Shown: piece by piece, positions 5,651 through 45,301 of the stretch | How positions within the stretch are numbered: position 1 is the first letter of the stretch | Layout: each line of letters starts with the position of its first letter | Source: Ramlibacter pinisoli | GTDB lineage: Bacteria; Pseudomonadota; Gammaproteobacteria; Burkholderiales; Burkholderiaceae_C | Length of the DNA stretch: 64,000 nucleotides | Reading direction: 5' to 3' | Assembly: GCF_009758015.1 (NCBI RefSeq) | Contig: NZ_WSEL01000003.1 | Span: 2,384,981 to 2,448,980, forward strand | Notes under the pieces: model-generated | Seen by the model: only the letters and a program-made list of their open reading frames with translations | What the model was told of the DNA's origin: nothing | The model's database searches: none | Translations under genes and position numbers: made by a program

Positions 5651-6877
5651 TCAGGCCGGATGCATCGGCAGGGATTGTTCGACCAGCCCGGCATGCAGTG
5701 CCGAGCCCAGGGGCAGGATGTCGTCGTTGAAGTCGTAGCGCGCGTTGTGCAGCATGCAGCTGCCCTCGCCGCCCTGCCCGATGCGCAGGTAGGCGCCCGG
5801 CTTGACCTGCAGCATGAACGAGAAGTCCTCGGCGCCCATGCTGGGCTCGAGGTCGCGCACCACGTGGTCGGCGCCGACCAGCGATTCGGCCACGTGGGCG
5901 GCGAACAGGGCCTCGCGCGCGCTGTTGGTGGTGGCCGGGTACACGCGCTCGTACTTGACCGAGGCGGTGGCGCCGAACCCCAGCGCGATCGCGCTGCACA
6001 GCTCGGTGAGGCGGCGCTCGACCAGCTCCTGCACCTCGGAGGTGAAGGTGCGCACCGTGCCCACCAGCAGGGCCTTGCCGGGGATGACGCTCATCGCGTG
6101 CACGTCGCCGGCCTGCAAGGCGCACAGGCTGATGACCGCGCCGTCGACGGGGCGGACGTTGCGCGAGACGATGCTCTGCACGCCGGTGATGATGTGGCCG
6201 GCGACCAGCACCGGGTCGACCGCCAGGTAGGCGTGGGCGCCGTGGCCGCCCTTGCCGGTGATCTCGATCGTGATCTTGTCGGCGGCCGCCATCATCGGGC
6301 CGGGGTTCAGGCCGATGGTGCCGGGCCGCAGCCCGGGCCAGTTGTGCATGCCGTACACCGCCTCGACCGGGAAGCGGTCGAACAGGCCGTCCTCGATCAT
6401 GGCGCGCGCGCCGGCGAAGCCTTCCTCGCCGGGCTGGAAGATCACGACAGCGGTGCCGTCGAAGTTGCGCGTCTCGGCCAGGTAGCGCGCCGCCCCCACC
6501 AGCATGGCGGTGTGGCCGTCGTGGCCGCAGCCGTGCATCATGCCGGCGCGGGTGGAGCGCCAGGCGAACTCGTTGCTCTCGGCCATGGTCAGCGCGTCCA
6601 TGTCGGCGCGCAGGCCGACCATGCGGCCGCTGCCGTTGCGGCGGCCGTGGATGACGCCCACCAGCCCGGTCTTGCCGATGCCGGTGTGGACCTCGTCGAC
6701 GCCGCAGACCTTCAGCGCCTCGCGCACCCGCGCCGCCGTGTACACCTCCTCGAATCCCAGCTCGGGGTGGGCATGCAGGTCGCGGCGGAACGCCGTGAGT
6801 TCGGGGTGGAACTGCGCGATGCGCGCGAATGCCCGGCCGTTGGCCCGGAAGCGCAGGTTGGGAACGGTGCCGAGCAT
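5651..6877 (-). CDS. M20-family amidohydrolase (hippurate hydrolase/aminoacylase-like)
   Basis: This is a 408-residue cytoplasmic metallo-hydrolase of the M20D group, which cleaves N-acyl or aminoacyl amide bonds. Metal-binding and catalytic blocks are visible: LHAHPELGFEE near residue 34, HGCGHDGHTAML, QPGEEGFAGARAM, GMHNWPGL and MGAEDFSFML near the C-terminus. There is no signal peptide. The ATG at 6877 shares a base with the stop of the permease (TGATG), which fixes the start and points to coupled translation. Its place between permease and receptor genes suggests that it hydrolyses the imported substrate, for example an N-acyl amino acid or aromatic amide. That role is inference from context. 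Confidence 0.9.
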   Translation of the reverse strand: MLGTVPNLRFRANGRAFARIAQFHPELTAFRRDLHAHPELGFEEVYTAARVREALKVCGVDEVHTGIGKTGLVGVIHGRRNGSGRMVGLRADMDALTMAESNEFAWRSTRAGMMHGCGHDGHTAMLVGAARYLAETRNFDGTAVVIFQPGEEGFAGARAMIEDGLFDRFPVEAVYGMHNWPGLRPGTIGLNPGPMMAAADKITIEITGKGGHGAHAYLAVDPVLVAGHIITGVQSIVSRNVRPVDGAVISLCALQAGDVHAMSVIPGKALLVGTVRTFTSEVQELVERRLTELCSAIALGFGATASVKYERVYPATTNSAREALFAAHVAESLVGADHVVRDLEPSMGAEDFSFMLQVKPGAYLRIGQGGEGSCMLHNARYDFNDDILPLGSALHAGLVEQSLPMHPA

Positions 6878-10553: not shown

Positions 10554-11726
10554 TTAGAAGACGTGACGCAGGCCCAGGTACACCAGGCTCTGGTCGGCGC
10601 CGGCGCCGATGGCGGCAGCACCCGAGTTGCCCAGGCTGTTGTTCGTGTACAGCTGGTACACGGCGGCCGACTCGTTGTCCAGCTTGGTGTAGCTCACGCC
10701 CAGCGAGGTGCGCTTGGACAGGGGGTAGTTGTAGCCCAGCGAGAACATCTTGGCGCCGGTGTTGGCAGCGGTGCCGCCAACGCCCAGCTTGACGTCGCCA
10801 GCGCGGGCGTACATACCGATCAGCTGGCCGGTGCCCAGCGGCACGGTGACCGGCAGGATCCAGACGCTACGCTGGGCGGTGCCGACGCCGGCCACCGAGG
10901 GGGAGGCGGCAGCGGTCAGGTCACGCAGCTCGGAACGGTCGTAGGTCAGGCCGACCTTGGCCACGCCGAAGTCCCAGCCAGCGCCCAGGGTGTAGGCGCG
11001 CTGCGAAGCGGCGGTGCCGGTGGCGGCGTTGTCGCCGGTCGTGGCAACCGTGCCGCCGGTGGCGGTGTGACGGTAGTACGAGAAGCGAACAGCCAGGGGG
11101 CCCTGGTCGTAGTTCAGGCCCAGCTGGGCGGCGCTACCACGCGAGGTGGTGGCCGTCACGGCGCGCTCGGAACCGTAGGGGTTGAAGCTGTACGACACTT
11201 GGCCGGTGAAGCCAGCCAGGTTCGGCGTGACGTAGCGCAGGGTGTTCTGCGAACGCGAGGTCACGGCGATCGAACGGCCCGTGCCGCCCGAACCGTTCAC
11301 GAAGCCTTGCAGGCCGCAGCTGGATGCTTGCAGAGCGATGGCGGTGCCGTTGCCGGCGATGTCATCGTTCACGCTCGTGCAGTAGTGGGTGTCCATCTGA
11401 CCAGCTTGGAACGCACCCCAGCCGCCACGCAGGCCGACGAAGGTGTTGCCGCTGTTCACGCGGGTGGCGCCGGCGGTGCCGTCGTCCATGCGGAAGCGGG
11501 TGTCGAGCTGGAAGAAGGCAGCCAGGCCGCCACCCAGGTCTTCCGTGCCGCTGATCAGCATGCGCGAAGAACCGTCGATCAGGGCGGTGTTGCTACCGGT
11601 GCCCGTGCCGGAGAACGAAGTGCGGCCAACGCCTTCCTTCAGGATACCGCCGAGGGTGACGGACGACTGAGCAGAGGCAGCGCCGGCGGCAGCCAGCACG
11701 GCCAGAGCGATCAGGGACTTTTTCAT
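10554..11726 (-). CDS. Outer-membrane porin, Burkholderia/Neisseria general-porin family
   Basis: This is a 390-residue beta-barrel porin that should form trimeric general diffusion channels. The signal peptide MKKSLIALAVLAAAGAASA is cut before QSSVTLGG. The L3-type region with the conserved FVGLRGGWGAFQAGQMDT segment and the terminal phenylalanine (LGLRHVF) required for barrel assembly are present. The start at 11726 is supported by GGAGA eight bases upstream; an upstream in-frame extension to 11786 would add residues ahead of a perfect signal peptide and was rejected. It is transcribed alone and ends in a strong terminator. Codon use is visibly more uniform than in neighbouring genes, fitting high expression. 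Confidence 0.95.
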   Translation of the reverse strand: MKKSLIALAVLAAAGAASAQSSVTLGGILKEGVGRTSFSGTGTGSNTALIDGSSRMLISGTEDLGGGLAAFFQLDTRFRMDDGTAGATRVNSGNTFVGLRGGWGAFQAGQMDTHYCTSVNDDIAGNGTAIALQASSCGLQGFVNGSGGTGRSIAVTSRSQNTLRYVTPNLAGFTGQVSYSFNPYGSERAVTATTSRGSAAQLGLNYDQGPLAVRFSYYRHTATGGTVATTGDNAATGTAASQRAYTLGAGWDFGVAKVGLTYDRSELRDLTAAASPSVAGVGTAQRSVWILPVTVPLGTGQLIGMYARAGDVKLGVGGTAANTGAKMFSLGYNYPLSKRTSLGVSYTKLDNESAAVYQLYTNNSLGNSGAAAIGAGADQSLVYLGLRHVF

Positions 11727-11811
11727 GCAAGTTTCTCCAAGGTTAAACATAGGGCTCCGGTTCGAAGGGCTCACGAATGCAGGCACTCACATGCTCCCGC
11801 CGGATCCCCGG

Positions 11812-11868
11812 GCCAACCTCCTTTTGGAAGGTTGGCGCTATTGCACCAGAGGGCCATTCGTGACGCAA
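11812..11868 (-). promoter_or_regulatory. Possible porin promoter and 5' hairpin
   Basis: On the minus strand a candidate -35 TTGCGT (11863-11868) and -10 TGCAAT (11840-11845) are 17 bases apart, each matching the sigma-70 consensus only partly. Just downstream lies an 8-bp inverted repeat GCCAACCT/AGGTTGGC (11812-11836) that would form a hairpin at or near the 5' end of the porin message. Such a structure could stabilise the mRNA. The promoter call is weak; the inverted repeat is plain in the sequence. Confidence 0.35.
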
Positions 11869-12012
11869 AGTATTTAGCCGCTGCCAAGCCGTTTCGTTGC
11901 ACGGGGGCAACAAGGTCCCTCAGGCACAGTGGAAACTGCGCAACAGGGGCCCGCCGGGGCTGCCGCGGCGCGGCCCGCGCCCGGTCGAGCGCCGGCGTCC
12001 TAAACTCGGTCC

Positions 12013-12630
12013 ATGGACAGATTGCTGGGAGCCGCCGATGCCGCGCTGCGGACCTTGTTTGCCAAGCCGCGGGCGCTGCGCGACTGCCCGGTCGTGCCGG
12101 CCGAACCGTCGAACCTGACGGCCGACGAGCGACGCCACGCCGGGGCCCTGATGCGGGTCAACCACGTGGGCGAGATCTGCGCCCAGGCCCTCTACGCGTC
12201 CCAGGCGGTGGCCACCCGCGACCCGCTGCTGCGCGAGCAGTTCGAGCAGGCCGCGCGCGAGGAAACCGATCACCTGGCGTGGACCCAGGCCCGACTCGAC
12301 GAGCTGGACGCCCGGCCCTCGCTGCTCAACCCGCTGTGGTACGCGGGCGCCTTCACGCTGGGCCTGCTGGCGGGGCGGCTGGGCGATCGGGTCAGCCTCG
12401 GCTTCGTGGTGGAGACCGAGCGGCAGGTCGAAAGCCACCTCGACAGCCACCTGCGCCGGCTGCCCGCCGGTGACCACGCCTCCCGTGCCATCGTGGCGCA
12501 GATGAAGGCGGACGAGGCCGCACATGCGCAGCAGGCCCTCGACCGGGGCGCCCTGGAATTGCCGGCGCCGGTCAGGGGCCTGATGCGCGCCGCGGCCCGC
12601 GTCATGACCACCACCGCGCACTACATCTAG
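12013..12630 (+). CDS. coq7: 2-polyprenyl-3-methyl-6-methoxy-1,4-benzoquinone monooxygenase (Coq7)
   Basis: This 205-residue membrane-associated di-iron hydroxylase performs the C6 hydroxylation of demethoxyubiquinone in ubiquinone synthesis, the job done by UbiF in enterics. The duplicated iron-ligand pattern of the family is visible: EICAQALY and EETDHL in the first half, [10 protein letters not shown] and DEAAHA in the second. Hydrophobic residues around [15 protein letters not shown] fit the monotopic membrane contact. It stands alone and converges on the OsmC-like gene 24 bases away. Length is normal for the bacterial form. Confidence 0.95.
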
Positions 12631-40004: not shown

Positions 40005-40080
40005 TGGAGCGGGAGAAGAGTCTCGAACTCTCGACCTCAACCTTGGCAAGGTTGCGCTCTACCAACTGAGCTACTCCCGC
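40005..40080 (-). tRNA. tRNA-Gly (anticodon GCC)
   Basis: The 76 bases fold into a full cloverleaf: acceptor GCGGGAG/CTCCCGC, anticodon loop TTGCCAA giving GCC, T-loop TTCGAGA, and an encoded CCA. It reads minus strand and ends at a strong terminator. A second terminator hairpin lies immediately upstream, and before the island arrived it would have been the next gene after tRNA-Phe. Confidence 0.96.
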
Positions 40081-40133: not shown

Positions 40134-40181
40134 CTGGTGGCCTGGGGCGGAATCGAACCACCGACACGCGGATTTTCAATC
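40134..40181. repeat. attL: 48-bp copy of the tRNA-Phe 3' half
   Basis: This block is identical over 48 bases to 45225-45272, the 3' half of the intact tRNA-Phe gene from the anticodon loop to one base past CCA. Beyond 40181 the similarity stops abruptly, and no tRNA 5' half follows. This is the standard scar of site-specific integration into a tRNA gene. Confidence 0.95.
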
Positions 40182-40395
40182 TGCCGCGAATCGCCTTGTG
40201 CTTCAAGCACTTAGCTCGGTTGTCCACCTACAAAAACCGGGTCGAATGATACCACTGCTAAGAGGGCGCTTCCTCTGCTTTGTAGAAGTCGGAGAGTTGT
40301 CCACGGCGGCGGGCGGCGCTTGCGACGAACCGACCGACGCGGTGGGCAACTCGGCGGAGGGGTCGCCATGTTCCCTCGACTGCTATGCTGGCGGG

Positions 40396-40776
40396 ATGGC
40401 AAAGACGAAGCCGAAGCGCCCGCCCGTACGACTGCTGGAGCCTCCCGAAGTCGAGCGCGCGATGGAGCGCTTCCGGGATGCGGTGCAACGATTCGACGGT
40501 TCATTTGACGAGTTGGAGTCGGCCATTGGCATGTATGTCCTCGGCCACTACGTAGGCTGGCGCGTGTTGGTGCTGATGCACAGCAAGGCGACGATTCGCA
40601 AGTACGAACAGATTCTCGGCATCGTGGTGCGCGAGGAGTTCCCCGAAACAGGCCCGGAATCTGATCGTTCAATTGCGTACACCGCCGCTCAGGCGCTTTC
40701 CAACTTCTGGAAGATCGTCTCTGGAGAAGCCAAGCTCGACGTACCCAGGGACGAGCGCAAGCACTTCACGTCGTAG
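40396..40776 (+). CDS. Hypothetical protein of the island (126 aa)
   Basis: This is a 126-residue soluble protein beginning with a Lys/Arg/Pro-rich tail (AKTKPKRPPVRLLEPPEV), then mostly helical sequence (AMERFRDAVQRFDGSFDELE, YEQILGIVVREEF). No family recognised. The ATG at 40396 was chosen because the open frame upstream runs into the attL border; there is no strong ribosome site. It is read toward the replication gene and may be a regulator or accessory replication protein, which is speculation. Confidence 0.6.
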   Translation: MAKTKPKRPPVRLLEPPEVERAMERFRDAVQRFDGSFDELESAIGMYVLGHYVGWRVLVLMHSKATIRKYEQILGIVVREEFPETGPESDRSIAYTAAQALSNFWKIVSGEAKLDVPRDERKHFTS

Positions 40777-40804
40777 CTCCGCAACAAGGGACAATCAAGT
40801 TCCC

Positions 40805-40844
40805 TTGACAGGCATCTCACGTTCCCTCCATAGTCGGAGGGAAC
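40805..40844 (+). promoter_or_regulatory. Promoter and inverted-repeat operator before rep
   Basis: A perfect -35 TTGACA (40805-40810) lies 18 bases before CATAGT (40829-40834), a four-of-six -10. Overlapping the -10 is a perfect 9-bp inverted repeat, GTTCCCTCC-N6-GGAGGGAAC (40821-40844), whose right arm is also the ribosome site of the gene starting at 40845. TTCCCT is present once more at 40800-40805. It may be an operator, an RBS-masking hairpin, or part of a replication origin. Confidence 0.6.
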
Positions 40845-41670
40845 ATGAAACGCCCTTCATCTTCCTTTGGCAACCTGGCTGCGTGCGGGCATCAGCCGGA
40901 GGGGGCCCCGCTGTGCGGGGTGACTCCGGCTGATGTTCCGCGCGCGGGGCTTGTCTCATCTAAAACAAGTGGGACACCACCAATAGAAGTCAGCTTCGAC
41001 GTCGGCGAGGTGCAGCGTCGACGGCTGGGTCGATTGAAGCGCACAGTTTGGGCGTGCTCCAACTGGCACCTGCTCACCGTACCGAAGGGCCACAGGGAAC
41101 GCGTGTGGTTCGTCACCCTCACATATCGACGCGTTGGGGACTGGCTTCCAAGGCACGGTGCCAGCGGCAAGCTGTGATCTTCAAGTACGTCTGGGTGGCG
41201 GAGCTGCAGAAGCGCGGCGCGATCCCCATTACCACCTTGCGATCTGGCTCCCTGTCCGCCTCCAGCTGCCGAAGTTCGACGGGCGCGGCTGGTGGCCGCA
41301 CGGCATGACTCAAACGGTCATCGGGCGTGCTCCGGTGGGCTACCTCATGAAATACCTGTCGAAAACCGGTCCGTTGCAGGCCTTTCCGAAAGGAGCGCGA
41401 ATCCATGGCTATGGGGGACTCACAACGCAGGCCCGGTCGGTCTGCACCTGGCTCAATTGGCCCCAATGGTGTAAGCAGCGATTTGGAGTTGGCCAACTCT
41501 GCTCGGTCGCCGGTCGTCGTGTGGTGCGGGAGACAGGTGAAGTTCTCGAGCCCATGTACACGCGAGTTGTCGTCCCTGCCGGCATGCGCCTGTACCCCAA
41601 TGGCCCTCTACCTGATCGATGGGCGGACGGGCCTTATTCGCTCCTTGAAATCGGCAATTGTGTTCAGTGA
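40845..41670 (+). pseudogene. Broken rolling-circle (HUH) replication initiator gene
   Basis: Three consecutive reading frames together spell one protein. Frame one (40845-41177) ends with VWFVTLTYRRVGDWLPRH, the first conserved block of HUH Rep proteins. Frame two supplies VIFKYVWVAELQKRGAI (about 41173-41223). Frame three carries HYHLAIWLP, the metal-binding H-X-H motif (from 41228), then GRGWWPHGMT and VGYLMKYLSKTG with the Tyr/Lys region, and runs to a stop at 41670. Two separate frameshifts therefore interrupt it, the first probably with a short deletion. Related proteins start rolling-circle replication of filamentous phages and small plasmids. Sequencing error at two places is the alternative. 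Confidence 0.75.
40890..40935 (+). repeat. Large two-part hairpin inside the rep region
   Basis: CATCAGCCGGAG pairs perfectly with CTCCGGCTGATG (12 bp), and within it CCCCGC pairs with GCGGGG around TGT. No T-run follows, so it is not a terminator. It lies within the 5' part of the rep frame. Long hairpins of this kind are common at origins of single-strand DNA replication. Confidence 0.7.
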
Positions 41671-41676
41671 CCTGCC

Positions 41677-41913
41677 ATGGGTTACGCCGGAACCACCCCC
41701 TTCCTCCTGACGCCTGAAGAGGTGCAGGACATCACAGGCTTCAAGCTAAGCCGTCTTCAAGTTGACTGGCTCAGTCGCCGGGGCTGGCGGTTTGAGGTCA
41801 ATGCTATCGGCCGCCCCGTGGTGGCCCGCAAGTACGCCGAGAAGATGCTCGGCTGCGCTGATGAGGAGGCAGTAGTCCTGCGCCCCAATTTCGGCGCTCT
41901 GAGGGCCGCCTGA
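41677..41913 (+). CDS. DUF4224 domain protein, probable excisionase-like partner of the integrase
   Basis: This is a 78-residue protein matching the DUF4224 pattern, with FLLTPEEVQDITGFKLSRLQVDWLSRRGW and a C-terminal VARKYAEKML helix, a small helix-turn-helix-like fold. Such genes very often sit directly before tyrosine integrase genes of phages and islands and are assumed to direct integration/excision or regulate it. Here the stop and the integrase start share a base (TGATG), so the two are translated together. Confidence 0.85.
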   Translation: MGYAGTTPFLLTPEEVQDITGFKLSRLQVDWLSRRGWRFEVNAIGRPVVARKYAEKMLGCADEEAVVLRPNFGALRAA

Positions 41914-42890
41914 TGGGCCGCCGGCGGCAATCCAATCACGACGACCCTCCGCGCTTCCACAAGAAGGGTAATACGTACTACCACGTGAGCGGCTCCGGGC
42001 CGCGTGTTTGGCGCAAGCTCTCTGCAGATCGCGCCGAGGCGCTACGACTGTGGGCCCAGCTGGAGGGCGTGAAAGAGGACGACTCCAGCCGCCTGTTCTC
42101 GGTTATTGCCAAGCGGTACGTTCGCGAGGTCTACCCAACCAAGGCCGTTCGCACGCGAAAGGACAACGACAAGGAACTGGCGCAGTTGCTGCGCGTGTTC
42201 GGCCACATGCCAATTGATGCCGTGCTGCCCATGCACATCCGCCAATACATGGACATTCGCGGTGAGGCCGCCAAGGTCCGGGCCAATCGGGAGAAGGCAC
42301 TGTTCTCGCACATCTTCAACAAGGCCCGTGAATGGGGCTACACGGCGGCGCAGAACCCTTGCCAAGGCGTCAAGGGCTTCCGCGAGACAGGGCGCGACCG
42401 CTACGTGACCGATGCCGAGTTCGCCCAGGTCAAAGCGCTGGCTCACCACACGGTGGCGGATGCGATGGACCTCGCGCTGCTCACCGGCCAACGTCCCGCT
42501 GACGTACTTAAGCTGAAGCGCACTGACATTCGCGATGGAGCCCTTTGGGTGGTCCAAAACAAGACCGGCGCTCGCATTGGCATCGAGGTAACCGGCGAGT
42601 TGGCCGCCACGTTGGAGCGCATCAACCTGCGACCCCGCCGCGCAATCAGCGCGTACCTAATTCAGGACGAGGTCGGCCAGCCACTCACCCAAGGCTCCTT
42701 GCGCTCACGGTTCGACAAGGCAAGGCAAGCCGCGGGCGTCAGCTTCCAGTTCCGCGATCTGAGGGCCAAGGCTGCGACTGATACCGGTGACCTGGCGCAC
42801 TCACAAAAGCTGCTCGCGCATCGAAACCGGGACATGACAGAGCACTACGTTCGCGCCCGGCTTGGCGAGCGCGTTAAGCCGCTTCGCTAG
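41913..42890 (+). CDS. Tyrosine site-specific integrase
   Basis: This is a 325-residue phage-type integrase. An N-terminal DNA-arm region (residues 1-60) and SAM-like core-binding domain (65-165) precede the catalytic domain. The catalytic residues are in LALLTGQRPADVLKL (Arg), NKTGARIGIEV (Lys), FQFRDLRAKAATD (Arg, with Arg in place of the first His), LLAHRNRDMTEHYVR (His and the Tyr nucleophile). No frameshift is seen, so it should be active. It is expected to recombine the 48-bp tRNA-Phe sites at the element's ends. It is in the interior, not at the att border, with the acyltransferase gene convergent to it. Confidence 0.94.
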   Translation: MGRRRQSNHDDPPRFHKKGNTYYHVSGSGPRVWRKLSADRAEALRLWAQLEGVKEDDSSRLFSVIAKRYVREVYPTKAVRTRKDNDKELAQLLRVFGHMPIDAVLPMHIRQYMDIRGEAAKVRANREKALFSHIFNKAREWGYTAAQNPCQGVKGFRETGRDRYVTDAEFAQVKALAHHTVADAMDLALLTGQRPADVLKLKRTDIRDGALWVVQNKTGARIGIEVTGELAATLERINLRPRRAISAYLIQDEVGQPLTQGSLRSRFDKARQAAGVSFQFRDLRAKAATDTGDLAHSQKLLAHRNRDMTEHYVRARLGERVKPLR

Positions 42891-42938
42891 CCAAGTACAA
42901 GGTCCGCCGCCAATAGCAGACACTCAGCAAATCGGCGA

Positions 42939-45011
42939 CTACCTCGTTCCTAGGTTACCAATCCGCCCCATCAGCTCTCTTGCAACAGCTTCGGCACCCC
43001 GCCAGTTCAGGTGGTCATCGTCAAGGTACAAGGGTTTGCCATCTGCATCAAAGGGCGAACATCGCACCGAATCGCAGAACCGGGGCAGCGGATCGAATTC
43101 GATAACTGCTGGGCGCGTGGCAAGCACCCGGCTGACGACGTCCCGGTAGCTCTTTTGCCGGAATTCGACCTCGGCGCGGCTGATGTCGCAAGGCTTGGGA
43201 GTGAACTGCCTAAAGCCCGTCAAACAACTACGCGGCTGGAATCCGAACTCTGGCACCTGGTGCACGAACACGACGCGCTTGCCGGCCCGCTCCAGTTCAT
43301 CCAACGTGCGGTTCAGTCCCCGCTCGAAGGCCTGCGCGGACGTCCCTTCCTCATCGGCATAACTATGCCGCCAGCGATTCTCGATCCAGGTGCGCTCGGC
43401 GTTGCCGAATCCCGTGCCCTCCGTCCACAGGGCATGGCGGCCGACCAGCATGACCCATCGAACGTCGGCACGCGCCAGTGCTTCCTGCAGAGCCGGCGTG
43501 ACGATGTCCCGGCAATGCTGGGACGCACCTGTCCCTGGCCAATACGCTTCCACGTCGAGGAGAGGGCCGCATCCCCCCTGCCCGATGGTCGTCAGATTGA
43601 ACGGAAGTTCATCCGCTTCGGCCATCCGGCGAAAACCAACCGCCAGGGCGTCCATGTGGCTGTCGCCCACCATGAACAGCGTCGCCGCGTGCCGATTGGG
43701 GGAGTCGTAGCACCCCGAGCGCGCGTAGGGGTGGGCGGCGCGGCAATATATATCGTCGACGACACGGGGCGTCTTCAGGTCGCCCAACGCGTCGTGCAGT
43801 GCCTGCTTACGGAACTCAAAGCCGTCGTAGCGTGCGGTGAGCCAGCCCACCGTGCAGACTATGGCCATCGCTGGTAGCAGCACGAGGGCGGCGGCGCGGG
43901 GCCGGTGGTGCCGCCTCAGAGGTAACTCGACAAACTGGTAAGTGCCGGCGGCCAGCAGCACGGCAACGCCTACCGCTGCCGCGCGAATCCACGCGGAGGG
44001 CTCGCGCCCTTCTGCGATGTGCAGGAGCGACAGCAACGGCCAATGCCACAGGTAGAGCGAATAACTGGCAAGGCCCAGCGCGACCAACCAGGCGTGCGAC
44101 AGGATGCGGCGATTGACCCAAGCTCGGGAGCCGGCATAGATCATTAGGCTGGTACCAACCACCGGCAGCAGGCCGCCCGGCGCCGGCACAGCGGAAACCT
44201 TGTTTAGCGAGATGACGCCGGCGGCGACGAGAGCCAAGCCAACCGTGGCTGCGACGTTTGCACGAGCCTTCGCGAACGTCGGGAGTCGAACACCGATCGC
44301 GCGCGCCCAGCTTGGCGCCGGCTGCCCGGCCACCATGGCCAGCAAGGCACCGCATAGCAACTGCCAGCCCCTGGCTTGCGTCGAAAAATAGCGCGCGCTG
44401 CCCTCCTGGTCGGCCACGAGAGCCACCGCGAAGGAGCAGGCGCCCAGCACCGCAATGGCCACAACCAGCGCCATCCGGCGGCGTGCCGCGAACCAGAGGA
44501 GCAGCGGCCACACCAAGTAGAACTGCTCCTCGACTGCCAGGCTCCACAGGTGCAGCAAAGGCTTCATCTCGATTGCCGAATCGAAGTAGCCGGCTTCCTT
44601 CATGGCAGTGAAGTTCGCGACGAACGCCGCACCACCCTGCACGTATCGCCCGAGATGCGAATATTCATCTGGCAATAGCACGAACCAGCCACTCGCCCAG
44701 CACGCCACCAGCACCAGCAGGAGCGGAGGGAAAATGCGCCGGACCCGGCGAGCATAGAAATCCGTGAGACTGAATCGATCCAGCGCGAGCTCGCCGAGGA
44801 CGATGCCAGTGATCAGGTATCCCGAGATGACGAAGAAGACATCGACGCCGGTGAAGCCACCGGGCAGCCACTGCGGAAACGCGTGGTAAACAACGACGGC
44901 TAGGACAGCCAGCGCCCGCAGCCCGTCGATGTCGGGCCGATACCCGTGAGGGCCCGGTGCTTTCTTGTTTTGCAAATGACGCGAGAAGTCTACGGCTGCG
45001 ATTAGAGCCAA
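42939..45011 (-). CDS. Acyltransferase-3/SGNH fusion, O-antigen-acetylase-like
   Basis: This is a 690-residue membrane enzyme. An acyltransferase-3 domain of about ten helices (residues 20-370) begins GYRPDIDGLRALAVLAVVVYH and contains FFVISGYLITG and LWSLAVEEQFYLVWPL. A periplasmic SGNH domain (about 430-685) has the catalytic Ser in MVGDSHMDAL and Asp/His in DDDHLNWRGAEAV. Such proteins O-acetylate lipopolysaccharide or other surface glycans. The start is uncertain: TTG at 45011 gives the longest reasonable N-terminus and no ATG precedes the domain. It is carried on the island and is its only evident cargo. Confidence 0.9.
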   Translation of the reverse strand: MALIAAVDFSRHLQNKKAPGPHGYRPDIDGLRALAVLAVVVYHAFPQWLPGGFTGVDVFFVISGYLITGIVLGELALDRFSLTDFYARRVRRIFPPLLLVLVACWASGWFVLLPDEYSHLGRYVQGGAAFVANFTAMKEAGYFDSAIEMKPLLHLWSLAVEEQFYLVWPLLLWFAARRRMALVVAIAVLGACSFAVALVADQEGSARYFSTQARGWQLLCGALLAMVAGQPAPSWARAIGVRLPTFAKARANVAATVGLALVAAGVISLNKVSAVPAPGGLLPVVGTSLMIYAGSRAWVNRRILSHAWLVALGLASYSLYLWHWPLLSLLHIAEGREPSAWIRAAAVGVAVLLAAGTYQFVELPLRRHHRPRAAALVLLPAMAIVCTVGWLTARYDGFEFRKQALHDALGDLKTPRVVDDIYCRAAHPYARSGCYDSPNRHAATLFMVGDSHMDALAVGFRRMAEADELPFNLTTIGQGGCGPLLDVEAYWPGTGASQHCRDIVTPALQEALARADVRWVMLVGRHALWTEGTGFGNAERTWIENRWRHSYADEEGTSAQAFERGLNRTLDELERAGKRVVFVHQVPEFGFQPRSCLTGFRQFTPKPCDISRAEVEFRQKSYRDVVSRVLATRPAVIEFDPLPRFCDSVRCSPFDADGKPLYLDDDHLNWRGAEAVARELMGRIGNLGTR

Positions 45012-45180
45012 GCGTTGCCGGCGAACTCCGCTAGATGCTCATTCCAGGCCGCCCGGAAAGATGGCCATGCCTGGAGAAATACCGGCATCACCTGGTCGTG
45101 CTCAATCTGCAGAGTCGCAAGTCCGCTCCTGGCCGGAAGCAGGCATTCGCAAGGAATTGTAGAAAACCAGACCGAATTGT

Positions 45181-45216
45181 AGAAACGCCCCAGAACCCGA
45201 ATCGGGCGCTGGGGCG
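45181..45216 (-). terminator. Terminator-like hairpin supplied by the island after tRNA-Phe
   Basis: On the minus strand CGCCCCAG pairs with CTGGGGCG over 8 bp, with a second small CCCGATTCGGG stem inside, followed by TTTCT. It begins nine bases after the tRNA-Phe repeat, where the original terminator would have been, so the element carries its own replacement. Confidence 0.65.
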
Positions 45217-45224
45217 CATGAAGA

Positions 45225-45272
45225 CTGGTGGCCTGGGGCGGAATCGAACCACCGACACGCGGATTTTCAATC
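45225..45272. repeat. attR: 48-bp repeat within the intact tRNA-Phe
   Basis: This is the second copy of the 48-bp repeat at 40134-40181, identical throughout. The tRNA 5' half continues from 45273, so the crossover lies somewhere in the block that begins in the anticodon stem/loop. Confidence 0.95.
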
Positions 45273-45301
45273 CGCTGCTCTACCAACTGAGCTACCGGGC
45301 C
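45226..45301 (-). tRNA. tRNA-Phe (anticodon GAA), element insertion site
   Basis: The 76 bases fold as tRNA-Phe: D-arm AGCTCAGTTGGTAGAGC, anticodon loop with GAA, T-arm GGTGG-TTCGATT-CCGCC and encoded CCA. The acceptor reads GGCCCGG against CCAGGCC, so base pair 5-68 is C opposite A, a mismatch. The 3' half comes from the integrated element. The gene still looks functional apart from that mismatch. Confidence 0.93.

Follow-up and report, generated by a model that had tools for sequence, protein, structure and literature searches.

A stretch of 64,000 nucleotides from Ramlibacter pinisoli (contig NZ_WSEL01000003.1, positions 2,384,981 to 2,448,980; hereafter the window, numbered from its first letter) contains a 5.1-kb element, at 40134-45272, that is inserted into a tRNA-Phe gene and belongs to a recurrent, little-described family of tiny tRNA islands. 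We think it reasonably likely that the segment descends from a small integrating rolling-circle element that depended on a helper, and that it has since decayed; the element is probably a satellite of filamentous phages (inoviruses). An earlier note on this DNA, made from its letters, had proposed a small satellite or plasmid-like island of a type that may be poorly described. The integrated tRNA-Phe element with its HUH Rep, DUF4224 protein, integrase and single cargo gene stood up to the analysis reported here, and so did the poorly described type, as a recurrent family was recovered, with empty sites in congeners; of the two classes proposed, a satellite is the more probable.

Insertion into tRNA-Phe

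The element is bounded by a 48-bp direct repeat, the two copies of which were identical at 48 of 48 positions when compared within the window. The proximal copy is the 3' half of a tRNA-Phe(gaa) gene, and a tRNA-Gly(gcc) gene lies outside the distal copy (40005-40080, minus strand). The segment thus has the layout of a tRNA genomic island, with an integrase gene adjoining a tRNA whose 3' end is duplicated. A search with the tRNA-Phe flank covered 59 genomes of the genus, that of R. pinisoli included; all matched, a few of them only at other tRNA genes, and 30 loci were fetched, 29 of which came from congeners. In six of these 29 (L051, L052, L054, L059, L064 and L068 in our numbering of loci) the gap between tRNA-Phe and tRNA-Gly is 41-53 bp, and the two flanks of the element, joined in silico, aligned across the junction in all six with 85.7-91.2% identity; in the other 23, tRNA-Gly was not called inside the fetched flank. 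Because the joined flanks align contiguously to six empty sites, the segment is an insertion into tRNA-Phe, and its 48-bp repeat is explained by tRNA-targeted integration and not by chance. The GC content of the element genes, 59.6-64.0%, is below that of the flanks, at 67.3 and 71.9%. That the segment is normal chromosomal DNA passed on vertically, its tRNA repeat having arisen by chance, is refuted by the contiguous empty sites and sits badly with both the perfection of the repeat and the lower GC content; we give this reading virtually no credence. The earlier note had described the perfect repeat of the tRNA-Phe 3' half around 5.1 kb and had suggested looking in relatives for an empty tRNA-Phe/tRNA-Gly junction. 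The six congeners have such a junction, and the segment is accordingly not vertically conserved across the genus.

Inserts after tRNA-Phe were also seen in other congeners (L081, L082 and L083), with tRNA duplications of 35-45 bp about 2.1-6.8 kb away, and in several congeners the 3' half of tRNA-Phe is copied over 45-50 bp on a different contig or at a distance from the tRNA gene. The tRNA-Phe site looks like an insertion hotspot in the congeners.

Gene content of the element

Read from the distal attachment-site (att) copy, the order is hairpin, 126-aa gene, broken Rep gene, DUF4224 gene and integrase gene, with an O-acyltransferase gene on the opposite strand adjoining the tRNA (Table 1). 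Domain searches bore out the genes listed in the earlier note (a hypothetical gene, a broken rep, DUF4224, tyrosine integrase and O-acyltransferase). The hairpin is not among the features it lists, and the hypothetical gene more likely begins at 40396 than at the start of the longer ORF, judging by the lengths of its homologues; inspection of the sequence revealed a promoter-like stretch near the start codon of this gene. The integrase and DUF4224 reading frames are intact, and the catalytic R, RxxR and Y motifs of tyrosine integrases are conserved in 12 of 12 aligned integrases.

No virion gene was recognized among the window genes with Pfam, PHROG or NCBIfam, by which coat proteins, being too short and varied, are not excluded. 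Family scans of the same genes gave no capsid-redirecting, terminase or primase-helicase gene of P4-like satellites or phage-inducible chromosomal islands (PICIs) and no Tra gene, and no relaxase family matched the scanned open reading frames (ORFs) of the window and its relatives. These scans agree with the earlier observation that no capsid, coat or transfer genes are visible.

Table 1. Positions, strands and supporting evidence for the features of the element and its target gene in the window
Feature	Position	Strand	Evidence
Distal att copy, 48 bp, displaced tRNA-Phe 3' half	40134-40181		Identity to 45225-45272
Conserved hairpin, candidate single-strand cis signal	40294-40352	+	Near-identity in relatives, covariation
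126-aa all-helical protein, family A2, probable regulator	40396-40776	+	Homologues, AlphaFold model
Rep N-terminal piece, broken gene	40845-41177	+	Aligns to L024 Rep residues 27-102; no Pfam match
Rep C-terminal piece, broken gene	41134-41670	+	PF23343 E 2.1e-12, profile positions 48-98 only
DUF4224 protein, probable excisionase	41677-41913	+	PF13986 E 7.5e-14; phrog_4764 excisionase E 1.3e-18
Tyrosine integrase, 325 aa	41913-42890	+	PF00589 Phage_integrase E 2.4e-13
Cargo AT3-SGNH O-acyltransferase, 690 aa	42939-45011	-	PF01757, PF19040; phrog_6705 O-antigen acetylase E 5.3e-147
Proximal att copy in tRNA-Phe	45225-45272		Repeat identity, tRNA call
tRNA-Phe(gaa), target gene intact	45226-45301	-	ARAGORN, Rfam RF00005

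When aligned to the intact 283-aa Rep of a relative, L024, the window Rep is spread over three frames. About 11 L024 codons are unmatched between the first and second pieces, residues 114-135 are matched in the third frame (window 41159-41224), and the C-terminal piece corresponds to residues 136-276. Judged by this alignment the Rep gene really is broken, as the earlier note had it, which means that the element is probably no longer self-replicating; intact Rep copies are present in relatives. At least four loci (L041, L045, L046 and L047) are reduced to an integrase fragment near tRNA-Phe, so that decay is not rare in the family.

A family sharing the integrase

A scan of genome contigs for the integrase gave 28 loci, with 61-84% identity in the best segment. 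The 48-bp core, at up to 5 mismatches, was present in 24 and tRNA-Phe was called in 22; it lies more than 5 kb away in two loci, L039 and L040. The four loci without the core comprise two at a contig edge (L029 and L044), one by tRNA-Met (L037) and one with neither (L048). Ten elements of 4.0-7.6 kb are bounded by both att copies with the integrase gene (int) between them, namely eight of the 28 loci, the window and L100, from family genome G069. Two further loci with two core copies, L032 and L040, were left out because int does not lie between the copies. Within each of the ten, the att copies differ at 0-1 of 48 bases and carry the host's own tRNA variant, as expected of site-specific recombination. 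The search for the gene set next to tRNA-Phe that the earlier note suggested has thus yielded ten att-bounded elements, the window's included, that share the integrase. Four more att-bounded elements without a match to the inovirus protein Zot have other integrases (L212, L213 and L216 at tRNA-Lys, L223 at tRNA-Phe). Against IMG/VR, a pattern-based scan found one relative of the window integrase, at 33% identity, and the best match among 198 phage records was at 41.5%.

The three tRNA-Lys elements, of 3.0-4.1 kb, have a PF23343-like Rep, a small protein that by eye is helix-turn-helix-like and another integrase, and present a parallel chassis. In L040 (10001-10690) adjacent integrase pieces stand in permuted order, as if two elements had been fused by deletion.

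Rep families and the link to filamentous phages

PF23343 (inovirus-like) Reps were found in six of the ten elements, by Pfam in the window, L024, L026 and L030 and by tblastn to the L024 Rep in L028 and L100. Two elements, L022 and L023, have PF05144 Reps of the filamentous G2P type, and one, L027, has a PF05840 Rep of the P2 gpA type; family searches recognized no Rep in L033. The idea that these Reps are fully non-homologous was rejected, as the L027 Rep matches that of L024 at 24% over 140 aa (E 3.5e-4) and also, weakly, PF23343. The P2-type and PF23343 Reps are thus remotely related and represent separate families within a single HUH superfamily. For the Reps of the G2P type, no match to PF23343 or P2-type Reps was obtained at E 0.1.

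The nearest named-phage Reps to the intact Rep are those of the Xanthomonas phages Cf1c, phiLf, phiXv2 and XacF1, at about 38%, and Zot was found in all 20 IMG/VR loci tested among those with Rep relatives, 19 times above the family cut-off (the 20 came from 80 of 128 such loci). A microvirus origin of the Rep had been considered since many homologues lie on 4-5 kb contigs; it was rejected, as the matching named phages are filamentous (10 records, 9 from Xanthomonas and 1 'Inoviridae sp.') and the tested IMG/VR relatives all have Zot. By contrast, Zot had no match in any of 14 att-bounded elements, the ten sharing the integrase and the four with other integrases. The same queries recovered it from 20 of 21 inovirus contigs used as controls, of which six had supplied the queries. 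An inovirus-type Rep in intact relatives and the lack of Zot in all 14 are features expected of an inovirus satellite; L027 departs from this in its Rep.

A tree of 56 Reps points in the same direction. Five label changes, of which well-supported branches force four, account for its 12 element rows, and none of 500 shuffles gave a number as low. L028 and L220 were too short for inclusion, and L219 received its element label simply because neither Zot nor a tRNA was seen. L214 was also labelled an element though its contig ends where Zot would lie, so that one of the five changes is probably false and three or four separate element placements is the safe reading. It appears from the tree that the PF23343 Reps of the elements nest at several separate places among the Reps of Zot-bearing inoviruses.

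A wider search in the order gave a Rep match in 13 of 399 genomes, most of them weak. In a separate search, the 120 homologues listed out of 1011 included 62 Reps at 60-90% identity, 19 of which had a longest metagenome contig of 3.9-5.3 kb. Such contigs are weakly suggestive of free circles and may also be fragments, as many other contigs plainly are.

Hairpin and 126-aa protein

The 59-bp hairpin upstream of the 126-aa gene is strand-asymmetric and is identical in L030 (59/59), with one change in L028 and two in L026. Over 14 aligned variants, 195 of 195 cells were paired and 6 of 14 pairs had changed on both sides (1 of 500 shuffles was as high); the covariation score was above all 500 shuffles and all slid controls, and one T.G wobble and one G.G mismatch were invariant. 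The aligned strand folded better than its complement in 6 of 6 pairs tested. Rfam gave no match to the hairpin. Among 14 loci with the 126-aa protein, the hairpin is strong in seven, six of which were in the hairpin model, and weak in L218; it was missing from the sequences of L024, L025 and L100 despite the presence of the protein.

In 299 genomes of the family, R. pinisoli included, the hairpin pattern with at most 3 mismatches was found at 13 places in 10 genomes, and a reversed control gave none. The hairpin is also on a 1.84-kb Variovorax plasmid with a PF02486 Rep_trans Rep. In other Burkholderiales (L233-L235 and L249-L252) it stands next to insertion sequences, annotated as IS21 and IS3 on plasmids and seen as rve-type transposase ORFs on chromosomes, perhaps as a shared insertion target or a carried part; in L255 an IS66 transposase ORF lies about 1.5 kb off. 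The idea that the hairpin is a packaging signal shared with inoviruses gained no support, as IMG/VR held no exact match and the matches in named phages were all short and weak (best E 0.05). That the hairpin is a second-strand (single-strand) origin is a guess. Its strand asymmetry fits a role at a single-stranded stage, but its insertion-sequence neighbors fit such an origin poorly and speak against an element-specific role.

At E 0.1, Pfam, PHROG and NCBIfam gave nothing for the 126-aa protein; 129 database proteins, its own copy included, match it at E <= 0.001. Among the ten elements it is restricted to those with PF23343 Reps, and the proteins of L026, L028 and L030 are 44-52% identical to that of the window. 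The AlphaFold model is all-helical (pLDDT 87.7), and a fold search with it gave nothing significant, the best E values being 2.5 against the PDB and 0.88 against viral models; a DNA-binding regulator is no more than hinted at by KorA chains at E 4.6-9.1. In the inovirus prophage L183, whose Rep is of the G2P type, a homologue of the 126-aa protein (6283-6729) comes immediately after Zot.

Cargo slot

In eight of the ten elements the stretch from int to the tRNA holds cargo, amounting to nine ORFs of which no two are alike at E 0.01; L024 and L033 are without a cargo ORF on that strand. The 4.8-kb element L030, from a Ramlibacter metagenome-assembled genome, encodes here a trypsin-like protein and a partner (10996-12083; PADLOC PDC-M35A/PDC-M35B), a candidate phage-defense pair by its sequence; L028 encodes a DUF2335 protein, and L022, L023, L026, L027 and L100 encode proteins without a Pfam family. 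Because no two of the eight cargo-bearing elements match in the slot, the AT3-SGNH O-acyltransferase is the window element's own cargo and not a family trait. It matches the O-antigen acetylases of the temperate Pseudomonas phages Fyn8, D3, PMG1 and D14O at 31-42% (D14O over 56% of its length), and is thus a cargo of the phage moron type. Phage O-antigen acetylase genes alter receptor polysaccharide, and changed phage adsorption is therefore a likely benefit of this gene.

Beyond the ten elements, PD-T7-4 was weakly matched by a DUF4145 protein of L035, and a Nal1-like match in L025 was weak and below the cut-off. The congener insert L082 has a 30% homologue of the L022 cargo.

Nature of the element

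We suggest that intact members of the family would excise as circles by means of the integrase and the DUF4224 excisionase and would replicate by rolling circle with their phage-type HUH Rep. They would be carried to new cells by another element, a filamentous phage being the most likely helper for such satellites, and would there integrate into tRNA genes again. Cargo delivered in the slot that separates int from the tRNA may pay its way by altering the cell surface or blocking phages. The window copy, probably not self-replicating, would stay in place as an O-acyltransferase gene whose product may modify surface polysaccharide and affect how phages adsorb.

Several observations weigh against a filamentous-phage satellite. 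No Zot was found in the R. pinisoli genome, and so no filamentous helper was found there; nor is Zot enriched in the genomes with elements, with two of nine (one just over the cut-off) as against 49 of 299 in the family sample, where the nine exclude R. pinisoli and the 299 overlap with the nine. The P2-type Rep of L027 means that inoviruses cannot explain all members, and a search of that element for a P2-type cos or other shared non-coding DNA gave only short matches, in the Rep, integrase and att stretches. None of 80 inovirus contigs matched the hairpin significantly, three matches at E 0.015-0.95 being roughly what chance would give; the window's own Rep copy is broken, and no circle, particle or transfer was observed.

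An integrative rolling-circle plasmid, in which Rep would maintain a free circle and spread would occur by conjugative mobilization or transformation and not in phage particles, agrees with the lack of Zot enrichment in the host genomes, with the lack of a significant hairpin match in the inovirus contigs and with the hairpin on the Variovorax plasmid. Some HUH Reps can act as relaxases. We consider such a plasmid rather unlikely, however, given that no relaxase family was seen among the scanned ORFs, that the Variovorax plasmid Rep finds no match among element Reps of PF23343 or PF05840 and reaches that of L023 only at E 0.03, that the PF23343 element Reps nest among those of inoviruses, and that the cargo is of moron type. 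Still less probable, in our view, is a remnant of an inovirus or other prophage stripped of its structural genes by deletion. The inovirus kinship of the Rep, its decay in the window and the 126-aa homologue beside Zot in L183 would all fit a remnant, but att-bounded relatives with intact Rep and integrase are likewise without Zot (0 of 14), and the presence of three Rep families on one integrase chassis indicates that the compact form is a recurring type and not the product of one deletion. No inovirus prophage with a window-type integrase at tRNA-Phe was recognized in the 28 loci, of which the eight bounded ones were tested for Zot.

To return to a helper-dependent satellite, a more specific proposal is possible, if on balance doubtful: a cargo-carrying satellite family with one tRNA-targeting integrase-DUF4224 chassis may swap its initiator among three HUH Rep families (PF23343 and PF05144 of filamentous phages and PF05840 of the P2 type), a swap that would allow a change of helper phage, and the hairpin would be a single-strand cis signal in the PF23343 branch. 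If these readings are correct, satellites only about 3-8 kb long are a recurrent feature of tRNA genes in Comamonadaceae and their kin, and virus catalogues miss them for want of a viral hallmark gene. A satellite would then be able to change its helper through a changed initiator, and such elements would serve as small carriers of genes that act against phages or modify the cell surface.

Comparison with known systems

Literature searches, largely outside subscription papers and wholly outside bioRxiv preprints, found nothing on this element family or on 'inovirus satellite', and DUF4224 together with an integrase turned up only in a paper on a Salmonella strain; we regard the family as provisionally novel. 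P4-like satellites and PICIs have an integrase at chromosomal att sites and no virion of their own; the window element differs from them in having an HUH Rep as initiator and no primase, capsid-redirecting or terminase gene among the window genes. As for actinomycete integrative and conjugative elements (AICE, pSAM2-like), family searches matched RepSA only below its cut-off in relatives, and the window scans gave no Tra. Inovirus prophages have a Rep family in common with the elements and, in L183, a homologue of the 126-aa protein, whereas the elements lack Zot. A 2024 paper, going by its title, reportedly concerns an autonomous plasmid that uses an inovirus helper; the elements here are integrated. 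RS1, with its inovirus-type replication gene and without virion genes, uses the host XerCD/dif system and carries an anti-repressor. It resembles the window element in combining a filamentous-phage-type replication gene with a lack of recognized virion genes, and the window element differs from it in its own tyrosine integrase and DUF4224 protein, its tRNA target and its cargo slot. RS1 is a satellite of the filamentous phage CTXphi of V. cholerae (PMC11389934).

The Pseudomonas tmRNA islands I23, I44 and I55 have a tyrosine integrase, direct repeats at an RNA gene, an 'inovirus Gp2-like protein' and putative defense cargo, and helper-phage transfer was shown for I55, which is transduced by a jumbo phage (PMC12595487). 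These islands are larger than the elements described here and carry AlpA and YqaJ; the two groups have in common the tyrosine integrase, the repeats at an RNA gene, an inovirus-like protein and putative defense cargo.

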